Made by a program: the position numbers and the translations under genes. Shown in pieces: positions 9,861 through 57,484 of a stretch of DNA of 64,000 nt. The stretch is taken from assembly GCF_030269925.1 (NCBI RefSeq), contig NC_085117.1, positions 5,174,231 to 5,238,230 on the forward strand. Direction: 5' to 3'. The DNA comes from Bombyx mori. Taxonomy: Eukaryota > Arthropoda > Insecta > Lepidoptera > Bombycidae. The notes under the pieces are model-generated. The model made no database searches, was not told the origin of the DNA, and saw only the letters and a list, made by a program, of their open reading frames with translations. The stretch's first letter is position 1, and the number at the start of each line of letters is the position of its first letter.

Positions 9861-10033
9861 GTGTGCTTAGTGCGAGTTTCTTAACATTCTCGATAGCGTA
9901 AAAGTTAACCCAATTTTGTATGCAGTTGGAACAGCGCCCCTAGCGGCAAACGCACGCGAACGATCCCATTCCATACAAATATGAACTAACTTTTACGCTA
10001 TCGAAAACGTTAAAAAACTCGCACTAAGCACAC
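9861..10033. mobile_element. Palindromic MITE with gtgtgcttagtgcgag ends
   Basis: A 173-bp near-palindrome with arms of about 60 bp: gtgtgcttagtgcgagttt at the left, aaactcgcactaagcacac at the right. Related copies: 31995-32112, 41600-41741 and 52395-52503. Confidence 0.8.
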
Positions 10034-11532: not shown

Positions 11533-12231
11533 ATGGATTGGACAAAGTATTTGGTGCTATTTATTTTGGTAAGTTTCGTTTGGTTATAACCTGAATAGTT
11601 TTTTTTATTGCTCACGAGCTTACGGCAAACCTGGTGTTAAGCGGTTACCGGAGCCCATAGACATCTACAACGTAAATGCCGCCACTTACCTTGAGATATA
11701 AATTCTAAGGTCTCAGGATAGCTACAACGGCTGCCCCACCCTTCAAACCGAAACGTATTACTGCTTCAGAGCAGAAATAGGCGGGGTGATGGTACCTACC
11801 CGTACGGACTCACAAGAGGTCCTGCCACCAGTAATACTGCTTGACTCTATTGAGGACAGCATTTTAGATTCCCACTTAATTTTGCACCGGTGCCCAACGC
11901 GGCGCACTGAAGTAATCATCTCTCAATCTACGTGACGACCGCTCTCTCTGTGTGTTTGTACCGTATGTTCTAAGGTCAGCGCCGTAATCAAAAGCGTGTG
12001 ATAACCATTGCCATCGCCCATGGACATTACCAATGGCAGTCAATGAATTCATTTGACTTAGAAATCCCTTAAAAAATTTAAGTATCATCATAATGCTTGG
12101 AAAACAATTTCGTTACACAGATGGTCGTGGTATCATCTACTTCGACCTCAAAGAAGAACCACCATGAACATTCGCATTCTTCCCACAAAGTCGAGAAGAA
12201 TTCGAAGATCGAGAAAGCTCTTTTAACAAAG
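11533..12231 (+). other. Ser4: Signal-peptide exons 1-2 of the sericin-like gene
   Basis: Exon 1 (11533-11568) encodes 12 residues ending phase 0. Exon 2 (12121-12231) adds 37, beginning MVVVSSTSTS. The hydrophobic run L7-V16 across the junction is the signal core, with cleavage likely near the Ser/Thr run. What follows is His-, Ser- and Lys-rich (HHEHSHSSHK), anticipating the His-rich repeats of exon 16. These exons stand outside the duplicated modules. Confidence 0.75.
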
Positions 12232-15200
12232 GTAATTAATTCGGACTAAGCTTAGATCGCCAAGTTGGTTAAGTGTTTTTTTTATTTGTCTCATACTGCG
12301 TACAAGGATCAACGAGTGCACGAGGCTTGAGGTTTTTTTTTACGGGTGGGCGCGAGGAATTCCTCAAGGATACCCAAGGGCCCGGGCCAATGGGCATGCC
12401 CGACTCCACTGAGAAAGTGTCTCAGTGACCTACGGACTAAAGCCTCCCTCCTGGTTATCTGTCCCTTTTTATTGTGGGACAACCTTTATCCATGTGTTAG
12501 TCATTAGCCATTTTCAATTTGCACAGTTCTTTTTTTTAATATATTGGTTTGAATTTAATTGAATTTAAATTGGTTTGAATTGAGGCTTGAGGTTGGAGTC
12601 TCAATCGCGTAAGGTCTGACTCAAACTTCAGACAAAACACGTGTTTTTTTCGCGGCTGTGGTACCTACTCGCGCGGGTTTAGAGTAACTGGCGTTTTCAT
12701 ACGTCTGAAGTTTGACAGCCGCTGAATTGTTTGTTATAATCAGTATACTCGTTCTGATTTCAGAGTCATGGACCGTTCTCATCGTACGGTGAGTGTACAT
12801 AGAGTTGTTTCAGTAATTCGACTATAATTTATTGAAATTATAAGTTTGAACATTATTATGGTCCTATTGTCAAAGACTATTTATTATATTTCTATAATCA
12901 CAGATTTCGCCAAAACTACACTGTAGACAAATAATATTAAAGATAAACAATATTTAGTCTATTCTCAATTTGACCACAGACTTTAAGTAATAACAAAAGT
13001 TTGACAATAAACAAAGAGTATATCTATGTGTGTGTGTGTCAAATACATGGTAGTGTGTGTAATGTTTCTTTACTGATTTAATGTATTATTAATGCATAAT
13101 TTAAAAAAAAATTAGCATTCTGCACTCCTTCTCTCTATTCTCTATGAGTGTGGGAAATTTCATAATCCTCCGTCCGGGCAATTTTCGTAAAAAGGGGTAC
13201 AAAGTTTTTGCTTCACGTATAAATATACAGATATATTTGGTTCCTTTTTGTTAACCCTTCTAGTTTTGAGCTAATTTTCACATATTTTACAGAAATCGCT
13301 AAAGCATTCTCGAAAAAGTAGCTCATAAAAAACTTTAACTTAAAAAGAAACAAATCTATGCTCTAAATTCACACAATGAAACTATGATAAATGCAAAAAC
13401 AACAAAAAAAAACATTAATAAATAACTAAAACCCCTTATATTCTCTAGTTAAATTTATATTTTAAACAATATCATTATATTTGAATTATTTATCTACATT
13501 GAACGACGATAATGAACTTGTTTAAGAAAAAACTTTAAAACTAAAAAGATCTTTCTTTCCATATAATATGTATATATAATATATATTTTATTGATCTTTA
13601 AGTTAGTATAATTTTTCTTTATTTTTTTTTCCTTTGATGGTTGTACGAGCTCACAGCCCACCTGGTGTTAAGTGGTTACTGGAGCCCATAGACATTTACA
13701 ACGTAAATACCGCCACCCACCTTGAGATATGAGTTCTAAGGTCTCAGTATTGTTACAACAGCTGCCCCACCCTTCAAACCGAAGCGCATTATTACTGATT
13801 CACGGCAGAAATAGGCAGGGTGGTGATACCTACCAGTGCGGACTAAGTAAGTTCAGTTAAAGTTAGTGAGAGTCAGTTAAGAAATTCTTTCGAAGACATC
13901 CGTGTTCATTGCGTGACAAGCTTTCAATATCGAACCTCTGCTATTTTTATTTAACACACAAAATCATCTCGATTGGCGAGTACTTAATAACATTTTTTTA
14001 TTTTCTTTCCCAGGTTTATTCGCTTCAGCTTTCTCGGGTAATTATTTAATTTATATTCCGGGGGCGTAATGTTCTTATGATACCTAAAGGAGCATCTAAA
14101 AATATGAGATTGCGATAATAAATCTCTCATCAAGATCATCATTCTTCTGCCCTTCTCCCAGTCACCTGGGGTCGGCGCAACATGTTTTCTCCTTCCACAC
14201 TCTTCTATCATATACCATTACTTCGCTTATTCTCCCCTATTACCCATATAGTCTTTCACGCAATCCATCCATTTCTTAGGTCTACCTCTTCCTCTATATC
14301 CTTCCACATTCATAGTTAACACTCTCTTACCAACCTCATTCTCATTTTATCTCATCACATGTCCATACCATTCCAAACGCGTACTTCCCAGCTTCTCTGT
14401 CACAGGTGCCACTTTCAGACTTCCTCTAACATATTAATTCAGTATTCTATCCATTCTCGTTACTCCACACATCCATCGCATCATTAGCATCTCTTCTGCA
14501 TGCAATCGCCTTTCACCCGCCACTTTAGTCGTCCAGAAAGCGGATTCATACAAGACGGCAGGCCTTATTAAGGTCTTATAATAATATATCTTCCCTTTTA
14601 GGGTAAGAGAAATGTGTGAGTCACATGTGGTGCAATAATAAATCTCTATTAACATGATCTTTACAACATAACTCGGAAGACTAATATCCGCCTGATTATT
14701 TGTCAGTGTGGCTCATGGACCAATGCAAGAAAATAAGTCACAGCCTGCGTTATCGTGAAGGTCTGATGCAAACCATTAATTCCACGCGTCAGTCGATGTT
14801 AAATCGATTTCCATTGCGCACCAAGTTCTCTGTGTATACATGGTTGATCGCGGCGTTTGTCTAGTTTCCCTGCTGCTGTCCAATGACTCCGAAAATCACT
14901 TAACAGCGGAAGTTTGACGATGTCCTTCGATAATAATTTGGTTTAAGCGACATTTATTTATGTAATTAAAGGTGCATTTTATTTGGTAAGTTTACCTCAT
15001 TCCAATAGCTGAAGAAGTTTTTATTGTTATGACATATTTTCCAAATGTTTAAACTTGAAATGGCTCTCCTGTAATGTTGCTTAAATCAAATAAATAGTCT
15101 TTCACCTCTCGATATTTACCCAGTCCCTGTTTTTTTAACACAAAATAATACCTTACAATAAACCTAAGAAAACTATTGTAAACATACTCCATAATATTAT

Positions 15201-18200
15201 TTGTTAATCTTAATTCTATATACTTACACAAAACTCAATCATGCAATACACATAAATCATACAATGTATCAAAACAAATAATAAACGATTCATAATTAAA
15301 CAATGAAATGAAAAAACAACGAAACTAACAACCTGCAAACATTTAACCAATGCCACATCCATGCGAACTAGCTCCTTGTGGCGCCAATATCTACCCGCCA
15401 CCGAGCGGCCGGCGGCTGGTCGAGTGGTAATTAATCTACCCTGTTTATACATTTAAAAAAAATAATAATCTTTATAGTTTTTGTTAAATGTATTGTTTAC
15501 TAGCGACCCGCCCTCGCTTCGCTTCGGAAACATTAAAACACACATGAAACCAAAAAAATATTTTTTTTTTTTTTTTAAAAGTAGCCTATGTTCATCAGGG
15601 ACAATGTCGGCTTCTAATGGAAAAAGAATTTTTCAAATCGTCCAGTAGTTTCGGAGCCTATTCAAAACAAACAAACAAACAAATCTTTCCTCTTTATAAT
15701 ATTAGTATAGATAGTATAGATAGCATAGCATCGCATGTTGTTACTGTAAATTATTGTCATATACTGCACGATCTGAATTAATTGTAACTATTTTAATGTT
15801 CTCATTTAAGTGAATTTATGTAATTCTTTTGAGAATAAAGAATATCTTTAACCCGAAATAATTCTGAACTAACAACGAAGTCGTGTCGAAAAGAAAATTT
15901 CAAATAATTTAATCCAAAGCGAATTTACTCTAACAATTAACCTGTTTAATTTTTTCTTTCGTTATTTCAGATCACAAAACCTCACACAGGATATTAAAGG
16001 AAATATCGGAATTGAGTGAGTCAATCGTTCGATTCGTTAACTTCTCCTCAGTTTTTTCCCCCTACCTATGCTGATAGCCTTGAGAGGCTATTTCAGATTC
16101 TCCTTAACGTGTAGGTGAGCTCACGGGGCTCAAACCGGAGTATTGCTAACATTGACCCCAGCAAGAGCAGTACTTCGCAGAATCTACTACCGGATCGGAA
16201 ACGTGACCCACTGAAGATCCGGCGGGAAATTCAGTGGGCTGTAAAAGTCTGAGAGTCGTGACCCTTGCTGGGCAATCTGTTGTCCTCTGCGTGGTGGAAT
16301 AGCGACACTGATGCTGGAGTCCAATGTCGTCTAAATTCGATCAGACCAGCGCATGGAACTCTTCCCATCTTTGCCATTAATGAGTACCTTTTCGAGAGTG
16401 TCACCCTTATTCCTCACAAAGACCTTCAAAACAACGTTTCGTTAATGTTATTTGTGAACATAACAAATTATCTAATATTTTTATTTGTTCTACAGAAGCA
16501 GCAACTAACTTAAACGAAGCATTCCACGGAATTTACTTGAGTAAGTTTGTTAATAAATAGCTTTTATTTATTTATTTATGTACACACAGAAAAGAAGACA
16601 TAGTACAGAGTAATAGGAAAACTATGTACAAAACAAGAGCTTTTAATTTCGATGACGTGATTTAAAAACAGTAGTCACAGCCTAAAAGATAAGCGGTCCG
16701 GTGCATCCGTATCTAGCCATGCAACGGTGTTCGAATCCCGCAGGCGGGTACCAATTATTGTAATGAAATACGTACATGACATATGTTCACGATTGACTTC
16801 CACGGTGAAGGAATAACATCGTGTAATTTAAAATGAAATTCGCAAAATTATTATTTGCATAATTACTGACAGGACCTCTTGTGAGTCCGCGCGGGTAGGT
16901 CCCACCACCCTGCCTATTTCTGCCGTGAAGCAGTAGTAATGCGCTTCGGTTTGAAGGGTAGCCGTTTTACTGTAAAACTGAGACTTTATAACTCTTATCC
17001 CAAGGTGAGTGGTGGCTTTTAAGTTGTCGATGTCTATGCCCGCAGTAAACACTTAACACCAGGTAGTTGTGAGGTCTTCCACCCATCTAAGCAATATATT
17101 AAAATAAAACAATTTTACTCTTCATTGATCTTTAGATATATTGTCCTTTTCTTTTAATCTTCATCTGTTTTAATCAACTTCCTCTTTTCAGTTGCTAAAG
17201 TCGTCTCCGACACCATTGAGGAGTGGATTCCAGAACGTAAGTGTGTTTATTAACAATTGTACCGGCGAATAGAATAAATCTTATAGAAAAACTAGCCATA
17301 CTCGCCCGCTTCGCTGGGCATTTAAAATTAACACTAGACGATGACCGATAAATTGTGTTTTTTAGAAATTATATTTAAATACGAATTACATATTGATAAA
17401 TTTTCAAGATAAATTCCAAGATCGTTTAGACATTTTTAAGTGACTTCGGGTGGTTTAACAACGCCATCTGCTAGCTTTAGTGTTATTGTGTCTTTAAAGC
17501 AATTAGTTGCTCTCAATTATGAAAAATAGTATTATTATTCGCCAATAGATGTCGGGAAGAGTCATGAAGTTGATTATCGATAAAGTTGATTATAAAAACA
17601 TGAATATAAATAAATTAAAATTGCATATTACGAAAACTTTAAAAATCTAATCTTAAGAACTTCGAGAAATTAGTCAATAAAAACAAACTAGGTGGCGCTA
17701 GTGCCCTTTTCATAAGACTTCAATGTATGCAATAAATTTTTGAACGAAGTTCTTTATGGAACGATGCGGAGGGGTACCCTAACAGGGAAAAAACGTCCAT
17801 AACGTAAGATTTTTATTAGTAATGCACACAGGTATTACTTATAAACTGTACGACTTAACTTTGTAATAACGTAAAAAAATAACATATTTTTTTATCATTC
17901 ATTGACCACGATCTCAGAGCGTTCGTTTGCGCAATACACTAATTTTTAATGCAAACAACCGTGAATGAAGTGTACCACAATAAGTTCGCACTTTACCGAA
18001 TGACCGTGGGTTGTTGCAAAACCTCCAGTTTTATTTTCTTTATACCTCGAATAGAACATAAAATTAATATTTTTATAATAAGGAACTTCGTTCAACGGTG
18101 TCCCACGACACCACACATCTTTTTTTTTTTCTAAGCACCGATATTAACAGTGTTAGTTTTAATATCGAATAATCTTTGTGTACATGTCAAAGTTTAATTT

Positions 18201-21200
18201 ATTTCTTTCCAGTTGGCACAGCTGTCGCGAGACGTAAGTCGTTTATCAATGTTTTGTTTGAATATATTATACAAATTCAATTTACCAGAAATACGTAAAT
18301 TTGGTTTGGCAAACACATTTTTCGGAACACATGTTTATTGTTGACACTGCCTAAAATGAATCCGCTAGGTATTTCATTTATGTAAAATTGGCTCGCTTTA
18401 CTCAGCATGACTTTTACTATCTTTTACGATTATACTAACTTTAAAAAACGCGGAGACACATTCGATGTTGTTAAGTAATTCACCACGTACCATCCGGCTA
18501 TGGAATGAGCTCCCCTCCACGGTGTTTCCCGAGCGCTATGACATGTCCTTCTTCAAACGAGTCTTGTGGAGAGTATTAAACGGTAGGCAGCGGCTTGGCT
18601 CCGCCCCTGGCATTGCTGAAGTCCATGGGCGGCGCTAACAACTCACCATCAGGTGGGCCGTATGCTTGTCTGCCTACAAGGGCAATAAAAAAAACGTTAA
18701 TATCCGTTCTAGCTAAACTAATTATAGTATCACTAGCTTTTGCCCGCGACTTCGTCCGCGTGGAATAGTTCACAAATAATGCTTTATTTTAGAAGAAATT
18801 TGGTTAGCATAAAAACTATAGTGAGCCAACCTTAACATATAGACTATATGCTTTTTTTTAGATCTTTTAAAGGGGAACAATTCTGTCATACATTATTTTA
18901 GCGAAACTGTAACAGTTTCTGCAGCGCATGCAACGGAAGCTCTCAAAAGGGAAAAAACCCCGATTTTGAAACATTCTTTATTGGTGCTCCGCTTGTATTA
19001 GTCTTAGCGTGATGCTATACATCCTATAGCCTTCCTTAATAAATGGGCTATGTAACACTGAAATAATGTTTCAAATCGTACCAGTTGTTCCTGAGATTAG
19101 CGCGTTCAAACAAACAAACTCTTCAGCTTTATAATATTTATCGAGGGGTGAAAGGGTATTTGGTTTAAGCGACATATCGCTTAATAAGCGACATTTATCT
19201 TTTTAATTAAAGGTCCGTTTTATTCGGTATCAGTATCAACAGTTCGACGCTTTTAATTGATCTTCAAATAAGTTCACACGATTCAAATACCTGAAGAAGG
19301 TTTTTTTTTGTTATGATATTGATTTTCCAAAAGCTTAAACTTTAAATAGCTCCCCGTAAATGCTCACGATCTACTTCCACGGTGAAGGAATAACATCGTC
19401 TAATAAAAATCAGACCCGCAAAATTATAATTTGCGTAGGTAATTACTGGTAGACCTCTTGTGAGTCCGCACAGGTAGGTATTCCCTGCCTATTTCTGCCG
19501 TGAAGCAGTAATGCGTTTCGGTTTGAAGGGTGGGGCAGCCATTGTAACTATACCGAGACCTTAGAAATATCTCAAGGTGGGTGACGCATTTACGTTATAG
19601 ATGTCTATGCGATCCTGTGAGCTCGTCCACCCATCTAAGCAATAAAAAAAAATAAAAAAACTGTCAAGTTGCAAAAATTTCGCTTAAACCTAATAGCATT
19701 TTAACCCTCGCTATAATCATTTCATTATTTAATCCATATCATTTTTGGAATTCAATTACCAATTACCTATTTATGAGAAGCTTGTAGAAGAAATTCTCTG
19801 TACTTTGTCAATATAACAACATGGATAGTTCAAAATCAAAGGCAATGTCAACAATGTACATACATTAAGATTATATAGTTAGTTAAAACACCGCTAGATG
19901 GTGCTACTGTTATCTAGTGTGATCTAGATCAGCCGCGTGCTTTTTTCATAGTTTTCACGCTAAATTTTTCCAGTTTTCCTCGCTCTCGGTCGAGGCCACG
20001 CCTGCCTCCCCGGCGGAGCCCTAAAACAACTGGCCAAAGGTAATTTATTCGAGCGCTGTTTACACAGATGTTCTTTATTAACGTGTTGCCGTGATTATAA
20101 ATTAAATTTAACTTTAACCAAATAGCTATAAAGCTGATTTTATAAAGATTCTTATACAAATATCGCATCGCATTCACACACTAACACTATATTCGAATTT
20201 CCTTGACAAAGGATCTTGTATTGTGTGATTCCAAATGGATTTTTTAAAGACAATTCGTTAATAGTTATGTATGTTTTCGTTGCGTAATACAGTACACATG
20301 AGGTTTCGACCTCACGTCTCAAGGGTTGTGTGCTGCGCGTTGTGATGAGCTCGCTAGCCACTTGATACTAGATGGTTCACAAGACGAGCCTTACCTTGAC
20401 CGCTCACCAAAGAAAAATCATGGAGGCCTTGAAAAACATCGCCTAATAATCCATTTCCTACATGACTAAGGAAAGATCACTCGACAATTTTGGTCAATGT
20501 TTATTTGAAAAATTAACCCTTTGCGCTCTTAAGACTATACGTCCAATGCGTGTGGAAATCGGACCTCAAAGCGTTAATGATGTGTTAGCACCAACAGAGA
20601 AAAGCTTTTCAGGTAAACAACCTAGGAGCTTCGCACTTAAAAAAACGAAGAAAAAAACACTTTTATTATTATTTCTTATTATTTCACTTTCTTCACTTAT
20701 TGTTATTTCATTTTATTTATTTCACTAATTCCCCGTCAAAATCGCAAACAATAATGTATGAACATTATCCACAGATTTGGATCTTGACATTTGCAAGAAG
20801 GACTACGGCGTGGAATGGGGCTGGGAGTATTATGAGGGAGAATACGACGATGTCTCAACTTACTTGACTGGCTGCGGTCTGGACTCGGATTACTTCAGCA
20901 AAATAACGAGTCTAATTGAAAACAGCGGGAACTTCACAGGTAAACTAGCCGACCCGACAGACGTTGTCCTTTGACACAAAAATTCACTCAAATCGGTCCA
21001 GCCGTTTAGGAGGAGTTCAGTGACAAACACACGCACAGAAGAAATATATACATAAAGGTAAATAACTTAATTCGTAGAACTACACGGCAGTACGCGGAAA
21101 CCAAATAAGGGCAATTGTACATTATTTTTTTTGTATTAATTGAAGATGAAGTTTATGATGTAATCTCGCGATTCAGAAGATGATAAATGTAATATTAAAC

Positions 21201-42200: not shown

Positions 42201-45200
42201 CGCGGACTCACAAGACGTCCTTCCACCAGTAATATCAATTTATATTTAATATTTCTAATATTATATAATTATCTAATATTATTAATATATAATATTTATT
42301 TCCTTTCAGCGACAACCATATTGGGCGCGCTCGGGAATAGCTACAAGTCAGGACGTAAGTCGCTATGTACCTATTCTATTAAAAAACATTTTCGATTATT
42401 TTGAAACAAATATGTATGACTCATAGGGCTGGCTGGTTCCGTCAGAGAGCTCCGCCTCGTTCGGCTGCTTGAGCCGGAATCTTTTGTGCGTTTTTTTTTG
42501 TTTCCTATCTATTCTAGTAACCTCGAGGGCTTATTCTAGATTCGCCGAGCTTATATGTGAACTCACGGGGCTCAAGCCAGGAGCGTTGCTAACACTGGCC
42601 CTAGTAAGAGCAGTGCCTCGCAGTATCTACCATCGGATCAGACACGCGACCCACTGAGAAGATCCGGCGAGAAACTCAGTGGGCTGTGTCTGTGGGTTAA
42701 TTCACATGTCGAGCCCTTCGACGAGGACGGTGACCGGTGCTTGTGGTACCTAAAAGCACTGTTAATGGATCGGGAGAATCCGTAATGACGTGTTTAGGGC
42801 GACGTCGATTGTTTATCATTCGGTCCACCGGATCGGGTATGATTTGTGCGACAATAGTCACTCTTATCTATAGTAGAACAGTGGGGGTAGCATAGTCATT
42901 AATTCTCTTGAATACCATCTCAAACAGTTGTTGACATGAGTAACATTAAGGAAACAGTTAACTGCAACTATTTTCAGTTAACTAAATAGTAACGCCGACA
43001 TGTATAAAAAAATTAAAGTGTAGGTAATTATTTTTTAATTGTAATTAATGTAATTTGAATTTTCAATTACAGTTGGACAGTTCATGGCTGAGGGTAAGTC
43101 TGGAATTAAAGCAATTATTTTTTCTCTTTCTCTTTTATTTCAGTTTAGTTAATAATCAGTCGCGATTTTTCATTATTCAGTGTGTCGTGTCATGTTTTTC
43201 TTGGATATACATATGTGGTTGAAGCACACGGCCTCAATGATGTGTTAATTGGTTTACCGGACCTATCACATCAATTCAGCGACTCGCAATCTATGTCTTC
43301 AGCAATTGAAGACATTAGTGGATGAAGGGGTTAAGTATCATTTTAAAGATTTTTGAGTTTTCACATCGAACGTAGGCGCTATGCGCCTATAAACCATATA
43401 AGACTTTAAAACTCTGGATTTAAAGGCTGTTTAGAAATGGCATGTGATGAAGGAGTTATAGTATTGACGAAGAAAAAGTACAAGTAACAAAAGTTTATAG
43501 TTCCAAAATCTTCTGTTATTATTACATTAATAAAAGAATATCCTAACACCTTTATTGGCCTTACACGTCTTCACAATCTTCCTTTTTTTCTGTCGTTCTC
43601 TTTTCCCTTTCTTACCGTTTTCTCTCACTCACATCTTAACGCTCCGTTACATTACGGTGATATTCCTTTACTGTCGAAGTCAATCGTGAAGATGAATTAA
43701 ATGCGTATTTTATTAGAAAAATTGGTCGTCAGCCTGCGGGATTCGAACCTAGGTACATTCGAATCGCTAGTTACGAACTCAACAGCCGTCTTATCTATTA
43801 GGCCGCGACGACAAGCTTCTCACTAGTGGAATTTTCAGATTGTATTGCACATTTAACCAGGATACCCGACTTTAGTGACGAAATTCCTCACTCGTAGGGC
43901 CCCAAGCAAATTTCTTATCAACTTTAGTAAGGTCTTTATGTGGATTTGTACCAATCAAACAACCGTCGGAGTCTAGATATAAGGTGTGCTTCATGTACCT
44001 ACCGTTATCCCATACCTATTCCTAGGACCCGAATTAACATTTCCAAATATTCGTTTTTATGTTTAATATTTTTTTGTCAAAGGATTCCTGAATTACTTCA
44101 AATACGTCGGAAACTACTATCAAATTGGTGAGTCATAACAATAACTTTTATATATTAACAGAATAATCAAGTCGAACTTAAGTATTGATCTAATCAATTG
44201 CTTCTCAGATTTAAGCATCTATGTATCCAAGATATACAAAGATCTGACCTTCTGCAAAGCGAACGCGCTTGAGGGCGTCATTCTGGACGGGACCACGGAC
44301 TACATCGAGGAGCATCCTAACATAAAATACGTAATCATCCGACACGTGCACGACCAAGTCCGTCGTGCGAACCGGAATAGAAGGAACGGCAGTAAAGTAT
44401 ACGAAAAATCCGGGAGCAAAACTGGTATAAGAAAAGTAATTATCGTCAGGAAGGGCGACCCTTCTGGCAATAACGCGGCAGGCTATGCCTATGCTGAGGC
44501 GGGCCCGCGTAACGCAGTGTATAACACGAACACAGATAATTCCGGTAGCGTTGCTTATGCTGCGGCACAATCGCAAGTGAACAGCCAACAGCAAGGTCTT
44601 AATAATGGAGGTGGAACTGTTTACTTAGAGGAAGCAAAATCGCAGGGCGGACAAGGAAATTCCGGTAGCGTTGCTTATGCTACGGCACAATCGCAGGCGA
44701 GCAGCCAACAGCAAGGGCTCGGTAATGGAGATGGAATTGTTTACTTAGAAAAAGCAAAATCACAGGGCGGACAAGGAAATTCCGGTAGCGTTGCTTATGC
44801 TACGGCACAATCGCAGGCGAGCAGCCAACAGCAAGGGCTCGGTAATGGAGATGGAATTGTTTACTTAGAAAAAACAAAATCACAGGGCGGACAAGGAAAT
44901 TCCGGTAGCGTTGCTTATGCTACGGCACAATCGCAGGCGAGCAGCCAACAGCAAGGGCTCGGTAATGGAGATGGAATTGTTTACTTAGAAAAAGCAAAAT
45001 CACAGGGCGGACAAGGAAATTCCGGTAGCGTTGCTTATGCTACGGCACAATCGCAGGCGAGCAGCCAACAGCAAGGGCTCGGTAATGGAGATGGAATTGT
45101 TTACTTAGAAAAAGCAAAATCACAGGGCGGACAAGGAAATTCCGGTAGCGTTGCTTATGCTACGGCACAATCGCAAGCGAGCCGCCAACAACAAGGCCTT

Positions 45201-48200
45201 AATAATGAAGGTGGAAAGGTTTACTTAAAGGAAGCAAAATCGCAGGGCGGACACGGTAATTCCGGTAGCGTTGCTTACGTTGGGACACAATCGCAAGCGA
45301 ACGGCCAACAGCAAGGGCTTTATAATGGACGTGGAACTGTTTACTTAGAGGAAGCAAAATCGCAGGGCGAGCAAGGAATTGCCGGTAGCCTAGCTTATGC
45401 TGCGGCTCAATCGCAAGCGAACGGCCAACAGCAAAGCCTTAATAATGGAGGTGGAACTGTTAACTTAGAAAAGAGACATTTTCAAGGCGGTTATGGAAAC
45501 GCGAATAGATTTACTTACGCCCCGGCAGGACCGCAGCTTATTGGCCAACAGCGAAACCATATCAATGAGCTCGGAAGCGCTTACTTAGAAGCGGGAAGAT
45601 CACAGGTTCAAAACGCAAACGCTGGGAGCGTAGCTTACGGTGCTTTAGGATCACAAGCAAACACCCAAAATCAATATAACGGAGACAATAGACTCAATAA
45701 TCGACATGTCAATAACATTGGCGAAGACAAATTAAGGGCAATAGGTGAACAATACCATAGGGGATATTCGAGCGATCGTAATGCAGTGAATACGCAAATC
45801 GAAGGTTCACTTCTAAATCACAGTGGCCACGTTCCATCGCCAAACGATTTCAGGATACAGAATCCCGGGCAACTCGCAAACAACGTCGGAACCAACCAAA
45901 ATAATATTTACGGCAATAAACAGTTTGGATATGGACCTCAGCAGGGGAGCGGTTATCAGCAAAAGAACTACAGAAATATAAATGAAAACGGGCAGGATAA
46001 AGTGAGTTGAAATGCTTCTGTTTTTTTTCGCTTTAGAAAAATTTGTGTGTCAAATTCCGACGTGCGATTGGAGTTTCGCTGAACGTTTTTATGTGATACA
46101 ACATTTAAAGAGTAAATAATGGCATCAATAATGCCATAAATAATGGCTATAAGCACCACCCTGCTTATATTCAAAAGTTTTCTATTTTATTCTTTTATTA
46201 ATCTTGTAGTCAGGCGCGTGTATGGCCACATGATGGTTTTTTTATTGCTTAGATGGGTGGACGAGTTCATAGCCCATCCGGTGTTAAGTGCGGTGGTACC
46301 TAAACGGAGAGTACTCAGCGGTAGGCAGTGGCTTGACTCTACCCCTGCCATTGCTAACCTCCATGATCCGGTAACCACTAATTGGTGGTTGGACCTCTTG
46401 TGAGTTCGCACGGGTAGGTCCACCCTGCCTATTTCTGCCGTGATGCCGTAATGCGTTTCGGTTTGAAGGGTGGGGCAGCCGTTGTAACTATACTTGAGAC
46501 CTTAGAACTTATATCTCAAAGTATGTAGCGGCATTCACGTTGTAGATGTCTATGGGCTCCGGTAACCATTTCACACCAAGTGGGCCGTGAGCTCATCCAC
46601 CTATCTAAGCAATAAAAAAACTAGTGGTCGCCCAATAGTCGAAATTCGACTATAATTAACAAAATTATAAATTTGAACATTATTACTGGTTCTATTGTCA
46701 AAGACTACATTATTATACTTCTATAATGACAGGTTTCGCCAAGACTACACTATAGGCAAACAATATTAATCTATTCTCAATTAGACCACACTTGACCACA
46801 GGCTTTAGGCAATAACAAAAGTTTGACAATAACAAAGAATATATAAATCTGTGTTGTGTCAAATACATGGTGGTGTGTAATGTTTTATTTTTTTAATTGT
46901 TTTAATGTATTTTTACGCATAATTAAAATAAAATTTTGCATTCTGCATGCACTCCTCTATATTCTCTATAAGTATGAGAAACTTCATATTCCTCCGTCCG
47001 CACAATTTTCGTAAAAAGGGGTACAAAGTTTTTGCTTCACATATTAATTTTACGTAAATAATGTAACAACACTACTGACTAACAAATGTGAAGAAAATTA
47101 GAGACTCGTTAATGATTTAAGCTCACTATTGTAAATATCGAGGGGGAAAGGTTATTTGGCTTAAGCGAAATTTTTGCAACTTCACATGAGAGCCATTTAA
47201 AGCTTACCTAAACATTTGGATAAACAATATCATAACCCAAAAAGCTTCTTCAGCTATTTGAATGAAGTCAACTCAATTGAATTCCAATTAAAAATATCGA
47301 ACGGTTGATTCTGATACCAAATAAAACGCACCTTTATTTACAAAGATAATAATGTTGCTTAAACAAAATGGCTTTTCACTCTTCGATAGTTTATTAATCT
47401 AAAACTTATATTCCATTATTCAACGAGTTCTCACACTGAATTAGTCCATGTCATTGATAAGTGTCATCGCGAAAGAATTTGTAGAATTTACGTTATAAAA
47501 AAAAAAAACTGCATACAATAAATATGTAAATAATAATGAAATTCTCTATTTACAGATTCACGGAGGTGAGAGTAAGTATTTATTTCTTGTTTTAAAAAGA
47601 AAGGTTTTTTTGTGTTAAAAGGATATTTATTCATTATAAGTGTTATGAATTCGACTAGGGTTGATAATCATAATTAAAATCACAACTTGTATCTTTAATT
47701 ATGCGACAGAAGTTTTCATTACGAAAACTTAAGTTTATTTTATCACATCGATGCCTCCAATGAACACTACTCTAACTCAAAATTTTGAAATTTTCGTTTT
47801 CACGCAAATCGCTTCACTATTTTAAAAGTATTACAAATCATTATTGATGGGGTTCGAAGCAAGAGTAAATCAGCTAGCTATACAAAAAAAAAACCTTAAA
47901 TATACCTATATCTGCAATCATGTTTATGTGGTTCTTCTATAATGGAAACATTTAGATATTCGAGGAGTGAAAGGCGACACTTTGCTTAACACGCGATATT
48001 TATCTTTGTAATTAAAAGTGCGTTTTATTCGGTATTAGCATAAAAAGAATCGATGTTTTTAATTGTGCTTCAATTAAGTTTACCCTACTCAAATAGCAAA
48101 ATTTTTTTTGTTATGATATTTTTTCCAGAATTTTTAATTTTAAATGGCTGTTCTATATAGTTGCAAAAAATATCGCTTAATGTGAAAATTAGTCGTTCAC

Positions 48201-51200
48201 CTCTCAATATGTTTCTCGCAGTTTGAAGCTACCGCGTCTAGAATGTTCCTCCGAAATTCACGACGTCACGGCCATTTTGATAAATTTTGCTGTGCTTCTC
48301 GCGTAGAGTAGGAACTAAGTATACGAAGCAATATTAATGGCATACGTAATTCTAATATTTGACATCTTTCTCCTTGTATTCTCTTTTAATATAAAAACGA
48401 GATGAAGTTGATTAATTAATTTAAGAATTTAATCAATTTGATATGAGACTAAATGAAACGAGTTAAGATGAACGAAATACAATCTCAGAAAAAGGAGGAT
48501 ATAGTAAAATCAGTAGGTCCATACTTAAATCAATTAAATTAAAGAAAAAGCCTTTTATTTCTAGCATTTTTAAACAGTAAAATTACAAAAATTTTATACG
48601 GATTGTTAACGATTTATATTTAATAATACTAATAATAATATTTAATATAGTAATGTATATAAGTCAGATCATTTGAATTTATAAATTATATAGTTATAAG
48701 ATTTAAAAAAGTTTCCAATTAATTTACTGTACAGCATGCAAAATCGGTACTTACTTAGACTTTTCAGTGGACATTTTTTTTTTATAAACCCCGTCAATAA
48801 ACACTTAAACCTAAAAAAACACTAAATGAATTTATTAAAATACAATATTCACTCAACACCGCGCGTCGCGTTCCCGCCAAAAACTCCTGTCAAAAGGTCA
48901 CTGACATTTGAAATGCATTCTCAAATAATTTCTTTTCTGATCTCAGATACAGAAGCAGGAGGCCATAGCCCGGGCTTAGTTGGCGGTACGTATACATTTA
49001 ATAAGTTCCCGGGTGGTGACCTTGCACCGTGAGACGTAGCATGGGTGAACCTCCACAGCGAAGAACGACCATTCTCAATGCGGGTAGCATCGGACCCGTC
49101 ATTACGACTAATGAGACGCCTATGTCCAGCAGTGGATGTTTCTGGGCTGATGACGACCCCAGAAGCCTAACTACATTCCCGATCCTGCGGACCGAATGTC
49201 AACAGTCGACGTCGCCCAAAACACGTCATTTCGGATCCTCCCGATCCACTAACGGTGCTTTAGGTACCTCAAGCATCGGTCATCGTTCTCGTCGAACCCG
49301 TCGCTTGCGACGAAGGGCTCGACGAATAAATTAACCCTCAAACACAGCCCACTGAGTTTCTCGCCAGATCTTCTCAGTGGGTCGCGCTTCCGATCCGGCA
49401 GTAGATTCATTCGCGAAGCAGTTGCTCTTGAGTTGTTAGGTCTCCTTCGGAGGCGCTCGGGCAGCTGTTAGCTAATCCCACCTCTGCTGACTGAGCCCTT
49501 GCTCGCCCACCTGTCCTGGTGAAACTAAAAAGGCGTTCGAACCACCAGTAACTTGTAACTTGTTGTACACCAGTAACTAACACCAGTAATTTGCTGCCAA
49601 TTTACGGGTAGTAGTTTATTGGTGTGATGACTCAAACTTCGACCTATCAAGATCGGCGCTGGTGTTCACATTGGTTGAGAGAGAGACAGAAAGAGTCAAA
49701 GGTCCGGCTTAATGGCCACAGATTCTAAGCACCTCAGCGGGTTCTCTCGAGTTTCGATTCTTAATTGACTTGATAGGGATTCTCACTAGCAATCTGAACG
49801 TTAATTGCTTTTTTCGTGCGTGCCTTTCCATCTCCCAGGAGAAAATGGTAAATTTTTACAAAATAAACACCCTATTAGATTATAAATCTGTTGTGTTTCT
49901 CGACGATAATGCCATTTGCTTTCTCGTTTGTATGTACAGACGTAGTTTACTTGACTCACTGTGACGAATGTTAAACGAATTTTAATTAATGCAAAGCGTT
50001 TTTGTTTCCAGGTCTCTTCAAATACTTGCTGGGCGGTAAGTGAAAAAGATAATTTGTTACTATATTTCTAATGACGGTATATCGTTAGGTGTAAGTTGTG
50101 GTCTGTAGGATTAAAGCTCCGATATACTCGCGTGGACTGATGCGGGATACGTACACGCACACATATTTTATTTTTGTTGCTTAGATGGGTGGACGAGCTC
50201 ACAGCCCACCTGGTATTAAGTGGTTACCGAAGCCCATAGACATCTACAACGTAAATACGCCATCCACCTTGAGTTCTAAGGTCTCAAGTATAGTTAGAAC
50301 GGCTGCCCCACCCTTCAAACCGAAACGCATTACTGCTTCACGGCAGAAATAGGCGGGGTGGTGGTACCTACTCGCCCGGACTTACAAGAGGTCCTACCAC
50401 CAGTAATAATCCACCAGTAATCTATAAAGATAAATGTTTGTTGGCACTCCAAGGGACGCTTCCCAGTACCATTAACGCACGACAGATGGCGCGCAAGTAC
50501 TCTCAACAAATCGATGATTTTATACAAATGTCGACAGTCACAACGTAGCGGGTTCTAGATATCAGTCTTGATAAATAGTATGTCATAATGTAAACGACTA
50601 GCGTAAGCTTAGATGATCGGCGCAGTCACTGATGCCCATGGACTCCGGACATTTTTTAAGACAAATGTACGAGCTCACGATCCACCTGGTGTTAGATAGT
50701 TACTAGGACTTTTTGGTGGAAACGCGAGGAGTGAAGTTGTGTGATTTAGTTTATTTTGTCTATTTAGTGTTTCTTCAGGTTTAAATGTGTAATAACGGTG
50801 GTTTATTGACTGTTTAGTATCTGTGAAAATGCACAAATGTGGGAAAATGAAACAGAGCCGCTGAACGTAACTTCTCACGATCCTCCAAAACAGTCCACTG
50901 AAAAAGTCTCAGTAAATGACCACCATTTCACTGAGATTATATTTCATCTCATATCATCTGATCTCATTACATTACATTTCATTTCATATCATATCATATC
51001 ATTTTTCATATAAGAAAATTAAATTGCCCCCTACAAAATTATAATTTGCGTGATTTCTGGTGGTAGGACTTCTTGTGAGTCTGCGCGGGTAGGTACCACC
51101 GCCCTACGTATTTCTGCCATGAAGCAGTATGCGTGTCGGTTTGAAGGGCGGGGCAACCGTTGTAACTATACCGAGACCTTAGAACTCATATCTCAAGGTG

Positions 51201-51441
51201 GGTGACGAATTTACGTTGTAGATATCTATGGGCTCCAGTAACCACTTAACATCAGGTGGGCTGTGAGCTCGTCCACCCATCAAAGCAATAAAAAAACTAC
51301 ATCTCTAAAATTTCGTTATAATGACAATAAACTATGGAACGCTTTGCGTCAAAACAGTTACAGTTAAGCATATGATTCGTAAAACCTATATATTATACTA
51401 ATCTATATATTTTGAAATTGCCAACAGGAAAAACGCAGTGA
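11533..51441 (+). CDS. Ser4: Sericin-like secreted silk protein, 34 exons, probably sericin 4
   Basis: Assembled by hand; every intron is GT...AG. Exons: 11533-11568, 12121-12231, 12764-12788, 14014-14037, 15971-16015, 16496-16540, 17192-17236, 18213-18233, 19974-20039, 20775-20939, 22299-22355, 23047-23097, 24876-24920, 25899-25919, 26728-26772, 27137-30600, 31564-31594, 32174-32197, 33706-33753, 34626-34670, 35005-35049, 35876-35896, 36991-37047, 38585-38758, 39870-39923, 40628-40678, 42310-42354, 43073-43093, 44083-44127, 44209-46001, 47556-47571, 48947-48985, 50012-50035, 51428-51441. Total 6813 nt, 2270 residues, no internal stop. Residues 1-12 (MDWTKYLVLFIL) plus the start of exon 2 (MVVVSSTSTS) form a signal peptide. 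Residues about 268-1422 and 1643-2240 are two giant exons with tandem repeats. Expected role: silk-gland glue protein coating fibroin. The name rests on my recollection that sericin 4 has 34 exons and about 2,300 residues; no known enzymatic domain is present. Very short exons mean automated models may miss many of them. Confidence 0.8.
11600..11848 (-). mobile_element. Bm1 SINE, 5'-truncated, intron 1
   Basis: tttttattgctcacgagctt to gtcctgccaccagtaat. Confidence 0.88.
12808..13230 (-). mobile_element. actagtggtc-end element, intron 3
   Basis: ttcgactataatttattgaa through caaatacatggtagtgtgtg to tttttgcttcacgtat. Confidence 0.8.
13621..13846 (-). mobile_element. Bm1 SINE, 5'-truncated, intron 3
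   Basis: Antisense; gagctcacagcccacctggt through ggcagggtggtgatacctac. Confidence 0.88.
14090..14660 (-). pseudogene. Decayed RTE-type LINE reverse transcriptase C-terminus
   Basis: Antisense frames give KTLIRPAVLYESAFW, KVAGERRLHAEEMLMMRWM and CGVTRMDRI, characteristic of the last part of RTE-group polyproteins. Stops and shifts interrupt it. The tail at 14140-14215 (cagtcacctggggtcggcgc, reading +) belongs to the same element. Lies in intron 4. Confidence 0.7.
14930..15118 (+). mobile_element. MITE with tcgaggggtgaaagg ends, intron 4
   Basis: ggtttaagcgacattt ... gtctttcacctctcgatatt. Confidence 0.65.
15500..15715 (+). mobile_element. CTAG-flanked RTE-type repeat, intron 4
   Basis: ctagcgacccgccctcgctt ... 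tccagtagtttcggagcc ... ataatattagtatagat. Confidence 0.7.
16045..16245 (-). mobile_element. LINE 3' UTR fragment, intron 5
   Basis: gcctatttcagattctcct, gtaggtgagctcacggggct and a degraded hairpin near 16205-16240. Confidence 0.7.
16690..17098 (+). mobile_element. Nearly full-length Bm1 SINE, intron 6
   Basis: tRNA-like head with B box (gtgttcgaatcccgc), middle (ttccacggtgaaggaataac), body and tail (cccatctaagcaatatatt). Ends about 90 bp before exon 7. Confidence 0.9.
17742..18095. mobile_element. Element with gaacgaagttctt inverted ends, intron 7
   Basis: tgaacgaagttcttt at the left, aaggaacttcgttca at the right; relative of 6083-6397 with mostly different interior. Confidence 0.55.
18481..18690 (+). 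mobile_element. 3' end of the agggcaataaa LINE family, intron 8
   Basis: catccggctatggaatgagc, gtaggcagcggcttggctcc and an agggcaataaaaaaa tail, nearly identical to 21837-22040. Confidence 0.85.
18730..19140 (+). mobile_element. CTAG-flanked RTE-type repeat, intron 8
   Basis: ctagcttttgcccgcgactt at the start, gttcctgagattagcgcg and ataatatt at the end. Confidence 0.65.
19145..19360 (+). mobile_element. MITE with tcgaggggtgaaagg ends, right end cut by Bm1
   Basis: Left terminus tcgaggggtgaaagggtatt is intact. The right end stops at aaatagctccccgtaaatg, where Bm1 sequence begins. Confidence 0.75.
19361..19652 (+). mobile_element. Bm1 SINE, headless, intron 8
   Basis: cttccacggtgaaggaataa to cccatctaagcaataaaaaa. 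Confidence 0.88.
20943..21058 (+). mobile_element. RTE-type repeat end, intron 10
   Basis: ctagccgacccgacagacgt ... tcggtccagccgtttaggag, directly after the exon 10 donor. Confidence 0.6.
21240..21560 (-). mobile_element. Nonautonomous repeat shared with 5755-6075
   Basis: Inverted relative; ends in gaagtttcacttctt and gtgcaccaagttgcac. Confidence 0.65.
21600..22040 (+). mobile_element. 5'-truncated LINE, 3' end with coding remnant, intron 10
   Basis: An open frame ends at 21982 (119 codons) and encodes the C-terminal tail of a LINE polyprotein (FHGECSEELFEMIP, RLWNELPSTVFPERYDMSFF). A 3' UTR of about 40 bp and an agggcaataaaa tail follow. Clade (CR1 or jockey group) not settled. Other copies: 1345, 18481, 31255, 46304, 52060. 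Confidence 0.8.
23318..23753 (+). mobile_element. actagtggtc-end element, intron 12
   Basis: ttaatacgtgaagcaaaaac to ttcgactactgcgggaccac then tagt; about 435 bp. Confidence 0.82.
24473..24745 (+). mobile_element. MITE with tcgaggggtgaaagg ends, intron 12
   Basis: tttaagcgacatttcactta ... ccctttcacccctcgatatg. A local expansion (aattaagattacttaactta, repeated) lies inside. Confidence 0.7.
24950..25570 (+). repeat. Minisatellite, about six copies of a 105-bp unit, in intron 13
   Basis: The unit contains gtcagtggggtcctaatg, ttacgagtggggggagcgtg and gttacccccttacttacat. Equivalent points fall at about 25013, 25119, 25226, 25331, 25435 and 25541. The strand is strongly G-rich with runs of 6-7 G. 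Open frames here (25226-25812) are by-products of the repeat. Confidence 0.9.
25571..25812 (+). other. Unassigned stretch after the minisatellite, open frame of unknown status
   Basis: The frame continues past the repeat and ends at 25812, encoding a mixed hydrophilic sequence (VDMNFQEGDVFKRS...). It lies in intron 13 and has no recognisable domain; it could be a fragment of a mobile-element protein. Confidence 0.2.
25800..25855 (+). mobile_element. MITE right-end fragment, intron 13
   Basis: aatgtcgcttaacccaaata then cctttcacccgtcggta. Confidence 0.6.
26058..26275 (+). mobile_element. Bm1 SINE 5' half, intron 14
   Basis: Best-preserved head in the window: A-box region ggcctaaaggataagacg and B box gtgttcgaatcccgc. 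Truncated after tactggtggtagatcctctt. Preceded by part of the LINE hairpin (26031-26057). Confidence 0.85.
26415..26640 (-). mobile_element. MITE with tcgaggggtgaaagg ends, intron 14
   Basis: gaagttcaattaaaaacatc and ttcgcttaaaccaaatagcc; termini eroded. Confidence 0.65.
28435..30400 (+). repeat. Ser4: Twelve 162-bp coding repeats (54 residues) in exon 16
   Basis: Each unit runs TKETKPTPTE, then TKHKHSHHKHKHD, then VIESKPIQEIEKHSE, then a Thr/Glu/Ser stretch. I count twelve VIESKP/AIESKP starts. Some units lack one His-Lys pair (52 residues). Units 1+2 and 3+4 are near-copies as pairs, and unit pairs 6-7 and 11-12 also resemble each other, so expansion went partly by two-unit blocks. Before the repeats, residues from about 268 include an acidic stretch (DNDDDDFSDLDEE). 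The His clusters could bind metal ions; that is inference. Confidence 0.85.
30610..31250. other. Intron 16, mixed degraded sequence
   Basis: tcatcatcatctcaaccact and gaacgtaggcctcttcaatc (30640-30700) look like an RTE-type LINE tail. The remainder shows no clear feature. Confidence 0.4.
31255..31530 (+). mobile_element. Decayed copy of the agggcaataaa LINE, intron 16
   Basis: tactacctggatccgctgtg and agctcccctccacggtattt correspond to the 21770-21900 stretch. Confidence 0.65.
31745..31922 (+). mobile_element. Bm1 SINE fragment, intron 17
   Basis: accaccgccctgtctatttc to gcaggtgggctgtgagc. Confidence 0.85.
31995..32112. mobile_element. Half of the palindromic MITE, intron 17
   Basis: ttgccgctaggggcgctgtt ... 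aaactcgcactaagcacg; right arm of the 9861-10033 family. Confidence 0.7.
32760..33165 (-). mobile_element. Two LINE 3' UTR fragments, intron 18
   Basis: 32760-32880 (ttgctaacactggcc, aagagcagtacttcg) and 33010-33165 (gtaggtgagctcacgggctc). About 130 unrelated bases separate them. Confidence 0.6.
33628..33680 (+). repeat. CT-rich simple repeat before exon 19
   Basis: tctctctctccgtctctctc and similar, 25 bp before the exon 19 acceptor; effectively an extended polypyrimidine tract. Confidence 0.9.
34149..34435 (-). mobile_element. Bm1 SINE, headless, intron 19
   Basis: Antisense from gtggacgagctcacggctca to acgcaaattataattttgcg. Confidence 0.87.
35214..35400 (+). mobile_element. LINE 3' UTR fragment with hairpin, intron 21
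   Basis: Hairpin 35223-35256, then gatccggtggcagattctgc and aaatagcctctcaaggctat; upstream 35140-35210 contains gaacccgtcgcttgcgacga. Confidence 0.78.
35480..35600 (+). mobile_element. RTE-type LINE 3' tail, intron 21
   Basis: ctatgcccagcagtgggta then aaaagggctga. Confidence 0.5.
35625..35715 (+). mobile_element. tRNA-like SINE head, intron 21
   Basis: cttaaacgataagaaggc and a B box ggttcaaatcccgc; no body follows. Confidence 0.5.
36410..36545 (-). mobile_element. Bm1 SINE fragment, intron 22
   Basis: aaacgcattattgcttcacg, ggcagggcggtggtgccta. Confidence 0.75.
37065..37730 (-). mobile_element. tcgaggggtgaaagg MITE split by a second element
   Basis: Left part 37065-37218 (gggtgaaaggctat ... 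gaagttcaattc) and right part 37613-37730 (aaaatatcggattgttg ... ttcgcttaaaccaattagc) are adjoining halves of one copy. About 394 bp between them is foreign. Confidence 0.7.
37219..37612. mobile_element. Nested insertion with partial inverted ends, intron 23
   Basis: Left end has cgtgtggcactcgggaactg then aaagctattgcacagc; right end has gctatgcaatagctta, giving a subterminal inverted match (aagctattgcAcagc against aagctattgcAtagc). GC-rich middle. Class unknown. Confidence 0.55.
37840..37945 (+). mobile_element. Repeat shared with 3610-3730, intron 23
   Basis: gaacaaatcacgcacggtca and ggattccctttgtta. Confidence 0.5.
38440..38535 (+). mobile_element. Repeat shared with 10555-10660, intron 23
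   Basis: atttcaagtgtacaacgata and gtcggctgctcgagtc; ends 50 bp before exon 24. Confidence 0.55.
38785..39040 (+). mobile_element. Two Bm1 SINE fragments, intron 24
   Basis: 38785-38886 (aactgagacttagaaatcat to aagcaataaaaaaa) and 38947-39040 (ccttgcctattgtgt to ctcaaggtttggtgg), both sense and diverged. Confidence 0.65.
39041..39869. other. Rest of intron 24
   Basis: No repeat or coding signal that I can support; two short open frames here lack any domain. Confidence 0.4.
40077..40478 (-). mobile_element. actagtggtc-end element, intron 25
   Basis: actagtggtgccccggtagt to tttttgcttcacgtattaat. Confidence 0.82.
41385..41580 (-). mobile_element. LINE 3' UTR fragment, intron 26
   Basis: agcaagagtagtgcttcgct, a degraded hairpin near 41452-41485 and gcgacgggttcgacgagaa. 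Confidence 0.7.
41600..41741. mobile_element. Palindromic MITE, intron 26
   Basis: Arms gttctcgatagagtaaaagt and acttatacgctatcgagaac. Confidence 0.75.
41995..42232 (-). mobile_element. Bm1 SINE, 5'-truncated, intron 26
   Basis: ggtggacgaagtcacggccc to gtccttccaccagtaat; ends 77 bp before exon 27. Confidence 0.88.
42491..42842 (-). mobile_element. 5'-truncated LINE 3' end with 8-bp target-site duplication, intron 27
   Basis: A T-tract (A-tail on the - strand) starts the insertion; hairpin at 42650-42683. tttgtgcg occurs at both edges (42483-42490 and 42843-42850). The sequence outside (42425-42490 and 42843-42960) rejoins into one copy of the 10555 repeat family, confirming the edges. Confidence 0.8.
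43650..43815 (-). mobile_element. Bm1 SINE 5' head, intron 28
   Basis: Antisense tRNA-like head (gggattcgaacctaggtac ... tattaggccgcgacgac) with the adjoining middle segment. Confidence 0.7.
44538..45700 (+). repeat. Ser4: About ten 120-bp coding repeats (40 residues) in exon 30
   Basis: The unit begins NSGSVAYATAQSQASSQQQG and continues LGNGDGIVYLEKAKSQGGQG. Starts fall every 120 bases from 44538. The four units at about 44658-45137 are almost base-for-base identical, whereas the outer ones (from about 45378) are diverged. The Ser/Gln/Gly/Ala composition with short hydrophobic SVAYA and IVYLE patches resembles sericin or adhesive silk proteins. Repeat character and composition differ completely from exon 16 although the two exons hold the same place in their modules. 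Confidence 0.85.
46237..46618. mobile_element. Composite: inverted Bm1 piece, LINE piece, sense Bm1, intron 30
   Basis: 46237-46300 antisense Bm1 end; 46304-46380 agggcaataaa-LINE fragment (gtaggcagtggcttgactct); 46385-46618 sense Bm1 to its A-tail. Confidence 0.75.
46620..47052 (-). mobile_element. actagtggtc-end element, intron 30
   Basis: actagtggtcgcccaatagt to tttttgcttcacatatt, directly abutting the Bm1 A-tail. Confidence 0.82.
47140..47390 (-). mobile_element. tcgaggggtgaaagg MITE, complete, intron 30
   Basis: atcgagggggaaaggttatt at one end, ggcttttcactcttcgatag at the other; about 250 bp. Confidence 0.75.
47960..48215 (+). mobile_element. tcgaggggtgaaagg MITE, complete, intron 31
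   Basis: attcgaggagtgaaaggcga to gttcacctctcaatatg; opposite orientation to 47140-47390. Confidence 0.75.
48216..48946. other. Rest of intron 31
   Basis: AT-rich. 48770-48905 (acacttaaacctaaaaaaac, cgcgttcccgcc) is a diverged relative of the repeat at 50703-50940. Confidence 0.45.
49060..49560 (+). mobile_element. RTE tail followed by jockey-type LINE 3' UTR, intron 32
   Basis: 49100-49145 has cctatgtccagcagtggatg (RTE end). 49190-49530 is the best match to the 3' UTR of the full-length LINE: hairpin 49348-49381, ctccttcggaggcgctcggg, ctgtcctggtgaaact. Confidence 0.78.
50172..50408 (-). mobile_element. Bm1 SINE, 5'-truncated, intron 33
   Basis: attttttgttgcttagatgg to ggtcctaccaccagtaat. 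Confidence 0.9.
50660..50940 (+). mobile_element. Bm1 scrap and a roughly 240-bp repeat shared with 62092-62318, intron 33
   Basis: 50660-50705 is an antisense Bm1 scrap. 50703-50940 (ttcttcaggtttaaatgtgt, gaaacagagccgctgaacgt, ccactgaaaaagtctcagta) recurs inverted at 62092-62318. Confidence 0.7.
51027..51295 (+). mobile_element. Bm1 SINE, headless, intron 33
   Basis: aaaattataatttgcgtgat to aagcaataaaaaa; about 130 bp before the final coding exon. Confidence 0.9.
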
Positions 51442-55685: not shown

Positions 55686-55688
55686 TGA

Positions 55689-57362: not shown

Positions 57363-57484
57363 TCGCCTTGCGGCGAGGCCCCAACTTCTCGGACCTGAGC
57401 GGTTCTATTGAACACAGGTGGCAATGCGGCGCGATTACTACAGGACAAAGAAAAAGCACAACAAAACAGAAATTACGAAAAGAA

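Follow-up and report, generated by a model that had tools for sequence, protein, structure and literature searches.

Two homologous 14-exon blocks in the sericin 4 gene of Bombyx mori and their origin by probable block duplication

The sericin 4 gene and its surroundings

The stretch of DNA analysed (the window) is 64,000 nucleotides long and corresponds to positions 5174231-5238230 of Bombyx mori contig C11, which was taken as chromosome 11. The gene on the plus strand is sericin 4 (Ser4). The spliced model has 34 exons and a single open frame of 6807 nt with no internal stop, encoding 2268 amino acids. All 2268 of its residues match those of A0A8R2M0R2 (P0001), a public B. mori protein whose record is titled uncharacterized. 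The name was assigned because of the 34-exon count and the location on contig 11, and not from a sequence named sericin 4. Both agree with published descriptions, which give sericin 4 as a 34-exon gene (PMC8228281) on linkage group 11 (PMC8329953); PMC records are cited here and below from excerpts of the papers. In one gene set the locus is divided among three genes (KWMTBOMO06324, 06325 and 06326), and the same paper states that its RNA-seq yielded "an exact model" of the gene with 34 exons (PMC8228281). Ser4 is already known and the question of novelty concerns its internal symmetry alone. The original Ser4 paper, and the source of the published 34-exon structure, is reportedly Dong et al. 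2019. No description of the internal symmetry was found among the matches listed in the open-access literature, a coverage that does not extend to that article.

Exons were located by scanning for open frames between splice acceptors and donors, the first pass being set to phase-1 exons of 15-260 nt. This pass returned 28 candidates, 23 of which were kept in the final model. The remaining gaps were filled afterwards, guided by exon lengths in the initial annotation of this DNA, which makes the model partly dependent on that finding; exact identity with A0A8R2M0R2 is the check that is independent of those lengths. The lengths proposed for E3-E15 and E17-E29 were all recovered from splice sites and frame. 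When the second giant exon (E30) was searched against its own genome (461.7 Mb, 30 contigs) one matching place was found at E 0.001. The exons and the arrays within them are listed below.

11533-11568, +, E1, start codon and first part of a signal-peptide-like start (by eye), identical to the public protein
12121-12231, +, E2, remainder of the signal-peptide-like start, then a His/Ser/Lys-rich stretch; phase 0 end
12764-12788, +, E3, start of module 1, 25 nt, phase 0 to 1
14014-14037, +, E4, 24 nt, GLFASAFS
15971-16015, +, E5, 45 nt, first helix of unit A1
16496-16540, +, E6, 45 nt, long helix of unit A1, part one
17192-17236, +, E7, 45 nt, long helix of unit A1, part two, WIP
18213-18233, +, E8, 21 nt, LGTAVAR, predicted helix begins
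19974-20039, +, E9, 66 nt
20775-20939, +, E10, 165 nt, carries WGW
22299-22355, +, E11, 57 nt, first helix of unit B1
23047-23097, +, E12, 51 nt, RDPSSWSLNEFGIGLAQ
24876-24920, +, E13, 45 nt
25899-25919, +, E14, 21 nt, LGTQIVD
26728-26772, +, E15, 45 nt, GFRQFFYDVSQEYGI
27137-30600, +, E16, giant exon 1, 3464 nt, Thr/Lys/Glu/Ser/His-rich; phase 0 end
28435-30345, +, tandem array inside E16, 162-bp unit (54 aa), 11.9 copies
31564-31594, +, E17, start of module 2, 31 nt, phase 0 to 1
32174-32197, +, E18, 24 nt, GVFARGIT
33706-33753, +, E19, 48 nt, unit A2
34626-34670, +, E20, 45 nt
35005-35049, +, E21, 45 nt, WIP
35876-35896, +, E22, 21 nt, LGTRFAD
36991-37047, +, E23, 57 nt
38585-38758, +, E24, 174 nt, carries WGW
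39870-39923, +, E25, 54 nt, unit B2
40628-40678, +, E26, 51 nt, QDPEEWNLEHLAATFAR
42310-42354, +, E27, 45 nt
43073-43093, +, E28, 21 nt, LGQFMAE
44083-44127, +, E29, 45 nt, GFLNYFKYVGNYYQI
44209-46001, +, E30, giant exon 2, 1793 nt, Gly/Gln/Asn/Ala/Ser-rich; phase 0 end
44538-45472, +, tandem array inside E30, 120-bp unit (40 aa), 7.8 copies
47556-47565, +, E31, 10 nt, with two donors 6 nt apart (47556-47571 is the 16-nt form)
48947-48985, +, E32, 39 nt
50012-50035, +, E33, 24 nt, GLFKYLLG, E4-like
51428-51441, +, E34, last residues and stop codon, identical to the public protein

The 10-nt form of E31 fits the B. mori record and the 16-nt form fits B. mandarina isoform X3. The acceptor of E34 is weak.

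Other elements were also present in the window. A two-ORF non-LTR retrotransposon (52806-57404, minus strand) is antisense to Ser4 and located 1.4 kb downstream of its stop. The longer ORF (961 codons) carries endonuclease and reverse transcriptase domains and the shorter (571 codons) a PRE_C2HC domain. An Rfam mir-2822 match (53227-53293, +) lies inside this element on the opposite strand, and three Rfam mir-2807 matches were found at 52379-52458 (+), 9906-9989 (-) and 41630-41703 (+). The location and copy number of these matches suggest that the registered miRNAs may derive from transposons. The R2 retrotransposon is expected at its rDNA target. An Rfam R2 RNA element was present in Ser4 intron 2 (12347-12513, minus strand), away from rDNA. 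A tandem array of a G-rich 104-bp unit (24955-25564, 5.9 copies) begins 35 bp past E13. The peptide GCPTLQTET occurs in three open stretches (11717-11911, +; 34281-34586, +; 46190-46501, -), which are likely to be fragments of one transposon family.

Paired blocks and a likely inner repeat

Exons E3-E16 and E17-E30 pair one for one. The lengths of the short exon pairs are 25/31, 24/24, 45/48, 45/45, 45/45, 21/21, 66/57, 165/174, 57/54, 51/51, 45/45, 21/21 and 45/45 nt. Eight of the 13 pairs are equal and the summed difference is 30 nt. When exon lengths were permuted 0/200,000 permutations were as close and 4/200,000 had at least 8 equal pairs. The initial annotation had claimed that the halves match in phase and residues. 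The phases agree, and the translations of modules 1 and 2 gave a local alignment score of 204, far above the shuffled mean of 32 (sd 4.9) and reached by 0/2000 shuffles. Protein identity between the modules is approximately 24%. In an exon-by-exon comparison 10 of the 14 exons had the expected partner as best match and the other 4 had it as second best. The motifs WIP-LGT, WGW, DPxxW, GLG and GF are common to both modules in the same order, and two cysteines are conserved. Module 1 spans 17.8 kb, within the block size of 15-18 kb suggested earlier, and module 2 is slightly shorter at 14.4 kb. Length, phase, order and residues all agree with the earlier proposal that the protein grew by duplication of a whole block, with introns kept while the protein diverged. 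The two consecutive 14-exon blocks are homologous on this evidence and whole-block duplication is the best-supported reading.

The predicted product of each block is an all-helical domain of approximately 220-230 residues that leads into a long hydrophilic tail of repeats. AlphaFold2 models built from four rows had a mean pLDDT of 70.2 and pTM of 0.74 for module 1 and a mean pLDDT of 75.9 and pTM of 0.81 for module 2; the two models are not independent because they were built on the same four sequences. Helices make up nearly all of both models. A search for solved structures related to the modules matched no fold.

The giant exons that close the blocks had also been given as a match. This applied to their place and phase and not to their repeats. 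The E16 repeat is a Thr/Lys/Glu/His-rich unit of 54 aa and the E30 repeat is a Gly/Gln/Asn/Ala/Ser-rich unit of 40 aa. Likeness between the two repeat units was rejected (1294/2000 shuffles as high). Likeness between the E16 tail and the region after the E30 head was rejected notwithstanding a shared RKVII (504/2000), as was likeness between E2 and E16 (955/2000). For the heads of the giant exons, the first ~38 residues, 63/2000 shuffles were as high, and 1658/2000 in a local test. Any homology of the giant exons is weak and may be confined at most to these residues. As the likeness is weak and at most confined to the heads, the two repeat tails probably expanded independently. Copy number of the E16 repeat differs between B. 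mori and B. mandarina, with marker-motif counts of 10 and 8, and the E30 repeat has a count of 9 in both. Serine makes up 9.5% of Ser4 residues, third after Lys and Thr, and tandem repeats are found in the large exons.

E31 and E33 had been described as repeating the start of the module. E33 resembles E4 (28/2000 shuffles as high) and, less closely, E18 (134/2000), and E31 is only 10 nt long. E31-E33 may plausibly be the decayed start of a third block, a likeness that is weaker than that between the two full blocks.

A further level of duplication, absent from the initial annotation, was seen inside the blocks. Each block seems likely to hold an older two-fold duplication in which E5-E10 (unit A) resemble E11-E16 (unit B). 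At 21 nt each, E8, E14, E22 and E28 encode LGTAVAR, LGTQIVD, LGTRFAD and LGQFMAE, respectively; the best partner exon of E8 was E28 and that of E14 was E22. When each module was compared with itself at shifts of 1-8 exons, the highest score was at an offset of 6, with Stouffer values of 3.16 (module 1) and 2.0 (module 2), compared to between -2.13 and 1.25 for the seven other offsets per module. These two results are not independent because the modules are related. When the columns of both B units were shuffled jointly within exons the observed A/B score was reached by 0/4000 shuffles, and by 12/4000 when the hydrophobic pattern was kept. In pairwise exon-locked tests the shuffles as high, each out of 2000, were 0 for A1/B1, 11 for A2/B2, 146 for A1/B2 and 0 for A2/B1.

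The predicted structures allowed A and B to be compared inside one model, independently of any A-to-B alignment. The long helix is 22 residues in A1, B1, A2 and B2 and an intron falls after residue 10 in all four. The first residue of the 21-nt exon starts the next predicted helix in each unit, and the distance from the exon start to the first helix is 2, 1, 3 and 0 residues in A1, B1, A2 and B2, respectively.

The likeness of E5-E10 to E11-E16 could instead reflect a common helical-hairpin pattern, the block not being itself duplicated. With exon borders unlocked, A/B scores were mostly within chance, as this explanation would have it: global shuffles as high were 201 (A1/B1), 881 (A1/B2), 569 (B1/A2) and 710 (A2/B2), and local shuffles as high were 61, 237, 147 and 1925, respectively, each out of 2000. 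The true exon order ranked 4th of 120 in the raw score test of A against B. An hhalign comparison, for which the units were cut at E5 and E11 and the inner borders were withheld, returned a probability of 1% (E 0.051), with 1/120 column shuffles as high. The same comparison nevertheless recovered a near-exact exon register, the starts of E7/E13, E8/E14 and E9/E15 being exact and that of E6/E12 off by two residues. The common-pattern explanation also sits poorly with the top score of offset 6 in both modules, the 0/4000 joint shuffles and the introns at matching places in predicted helices, and is considered rather unlikely. An older doubling of the unit is preferred.

Intron phases and the origin of the blocks

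Of the 33 introns of Ser4, 29 are in phase 1. Phase 0 occurs after E1, E2, E16 and E30 only. Both blocks start and end at phase 0 and all introns inside them are phase 1. A block flanked by phase-0 introns can be copied in frame. Exon order, length, phase and homologous residues all match, and Ser4 passes as an intragenic duplication of a phase-symmetric exon block. Exon-block duplication is a process of known kind.

The ancestral Ser4 would have been a one-block gene. We infer that the block was copied in tandem when the phase-0 introns at its edges (after E2 and E16) underwent unequal exchange, a step that leaves the reading frame intact. The block may itself have come from an earlier doubling of a smaller unit, today E5-E10 and E11-E16, a step which is supported but less certain. 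The order of growth would then be from a unit to a unit pair to a pair of pairs. As a whole this explanation, comprising the 34-exon gene, the tandem block copy, the earlier unit doubling, the independent tails and the proposed function, is held to be highly probable.

Module number was compared in B. mori and B. mandarina. The B. mandarina protein (P0002) also carries both modules, which places the duplication before the split of the two species. The species differ at 1/218 and 4/220 residues in the two modules, compared to approximately 24% identity between the modules, which makes the copy much older than the split. A blastn comparison of the modules (E 0.001) showed no surviving trace of the block copy in the DNA. 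The 37 rows returned all start in introns, and the 3 of 37 that join partner introns are all inverted, so they look like scattered repeats and not remnants of the copy. Protein searches with module 1 alone gave matches to 0/1912 candidates at E 10 and with module 2 and its tail to 0/1664 candidates at E 10. A query made of the opening 400 residues of a 1677-residue Ser4 stretch matched two of 7837 candidates at E 1, both of them from Bombyx. As this kind of search depends on common 5-residue words and restricts length, distant orthologues may be present in other moths.

An alternative origin is that the halves were once separate tandem paralogous genes and were later fused into one transcription unit. 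The division of the locus into three genes in the published gene set (PMC8228281) is in keeping with such a history, as are the two unrelated repeat tails. Against it, the 34-exon model, with 2268/2268 residues equal to the public protein, gives module 2 no separate signal-peptide exon, and E16 joins E17 in phase 0 as E2 joins E3. The RNA-seq "exact model" is also of one 34-exon gene (PMC8228281). Fusion of separate genes is regarded as improbable, and duplication of the block within one gene is retained.

The modules could also be distantly related to fibroin light chain (FibL), making Ser4 a glue on a FibL-like domain. The query was a sequence taken to be B. mori FibL, and Pfam assigns it to L-fibroin. 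In hhalign the module profile scored 28.1 against FibL over 45 columns (E12-E15) with 31% identity. This score was reached by 0/150 and 0/500 shuffles and by 0/141 E. coli protein pieces, but the best E. coli control piece reached 25.6 and the probability given by hhalign itself was 12.7%. With module 2 alone there was no signal (77/150 shuffles as high), and with module 1 alone the count was 3/150. Pfam L-fibroin (PF05849) matched neither modules nor units, the profile giving no match to either at E <= 10 in a search where the HMMER filters discard weak hits. A comparison of FibL with the unit profile was rejected as without signal, with 9/60 shuffles as high for whole FibL and 3/60 and 14/60 for its two halves. 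A relationship of this kind is accordingly doubtful, and there is a slimmer chance that Ser4 is a four-fold nested repeat of a small helical unit which also underlies FibL. If true, a silk glue and the silk-core light chain would come from one helical module, with the Ser4 tails added via exon-block duplication. The FibL link is treated as a lead only.

Convergence, in which small phase-1 exons for amphipathic helices come to look alike, would suit the low identity of about 24% and the helix-rich, biased composition, but is extremely improbable given the module shuffles (0/2000), the exon-length permutations (0/200,000), the ordered motifs WIP-LGT, WGW, DPxxW, GLG and GF in both modules, and an A/B likeness which, even though far weaker, beats 3988/4000 shuffles that keep the hydrophobic pattern. 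The reading carried forward is that a whole block of exons was duplicated within Ser4.

Function and comparison with known silk systems

Some silk proteins pair folded domains with repeats. By analogy with these, the Ser4 domains may serve assembly and the tails adhesion. The protein would be laid out as a signal peptide, a helical domain, a sticky tail, a second helical domain and a second sticky tail. In the lumen of the silk gland the folded domains would most likely hold the secreted glue in solution and link its molecules together, and adhesion in the coat of the non-cocoon silk of early larvae would fall to the repeat tails. Ser4 has been described as expressed in sericin-producing silk-gland cells and absent from cocoon silk (PMC9184679, PMC9745057), with expression in the middle silk gland and secretion in non-cocoon silk (PMC9184679, PMC12108825, PMC9745057, PMC8329953). 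It has been reported in posterior silk-gland cells too (PMC9184679).

Sericins and silk mucins evolve too fast for orthologues to be found easily. In an excerpt of the KAIKObase paper sericin orthologues were not identifiable in the other species compared (PMC7918157). The non-repeat modules of Ser4, with their intron phases, 21-nt exon and WIP-LGT, WGW and DPxxW motifs, may be a signature for relatives whose repeats cannot be aligned. Ser4 merits further attention as the possible source of a signature by which a hard-to-trace silk-glue family could be searched. Short helix-coding exons of uniform phase let this silk gene double, apparently twice, and the modules mark a foldable domain of a non-cocoon silk adhesive for structure work.

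The gene described here has the same 34 exons and linkage group 11 location as published Bombyx mori sericin 4 (PMC8228281, PMC8329953). The two-block and nested symmetry is not mentioned in the excerpts of those descriptions (PMC8228281, PMC8329953). Mucin1 of Yponomeuta cagnagella (YC-Muc1, 32 exons) is, like Ser4, a many-exon silk-coat gene (PMC9684489). It is said to tend "to duplicate entire exons" (PMC9684489), a description that concerns whole exons and not a 14-exon block as in Ser4. The mucin-1 family has a three-cysteine motif near the C-terminus (PMC9684489, PMC9745057) which Ser4 is without, no cysteine being found in its last exons E31-E34. Fibroin light chain (PF05849) is like the Ser4 module in length (FibL has a 262-residue precursor) and in the 45-column local likeness, but differs in that Ser4 has no Pfam match and the local likeness was not reproduced with module 2 or the units. 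The lepidopteran sericins 1-3 are, like Ser4, silk-gland coat proteins with a long repeat-coding exon, Ser1 having nine exons in B. mori (PMC8228281). Compared to sericins 1-3, Ser4 has two predicted helical domains encoded by 26 short exons.
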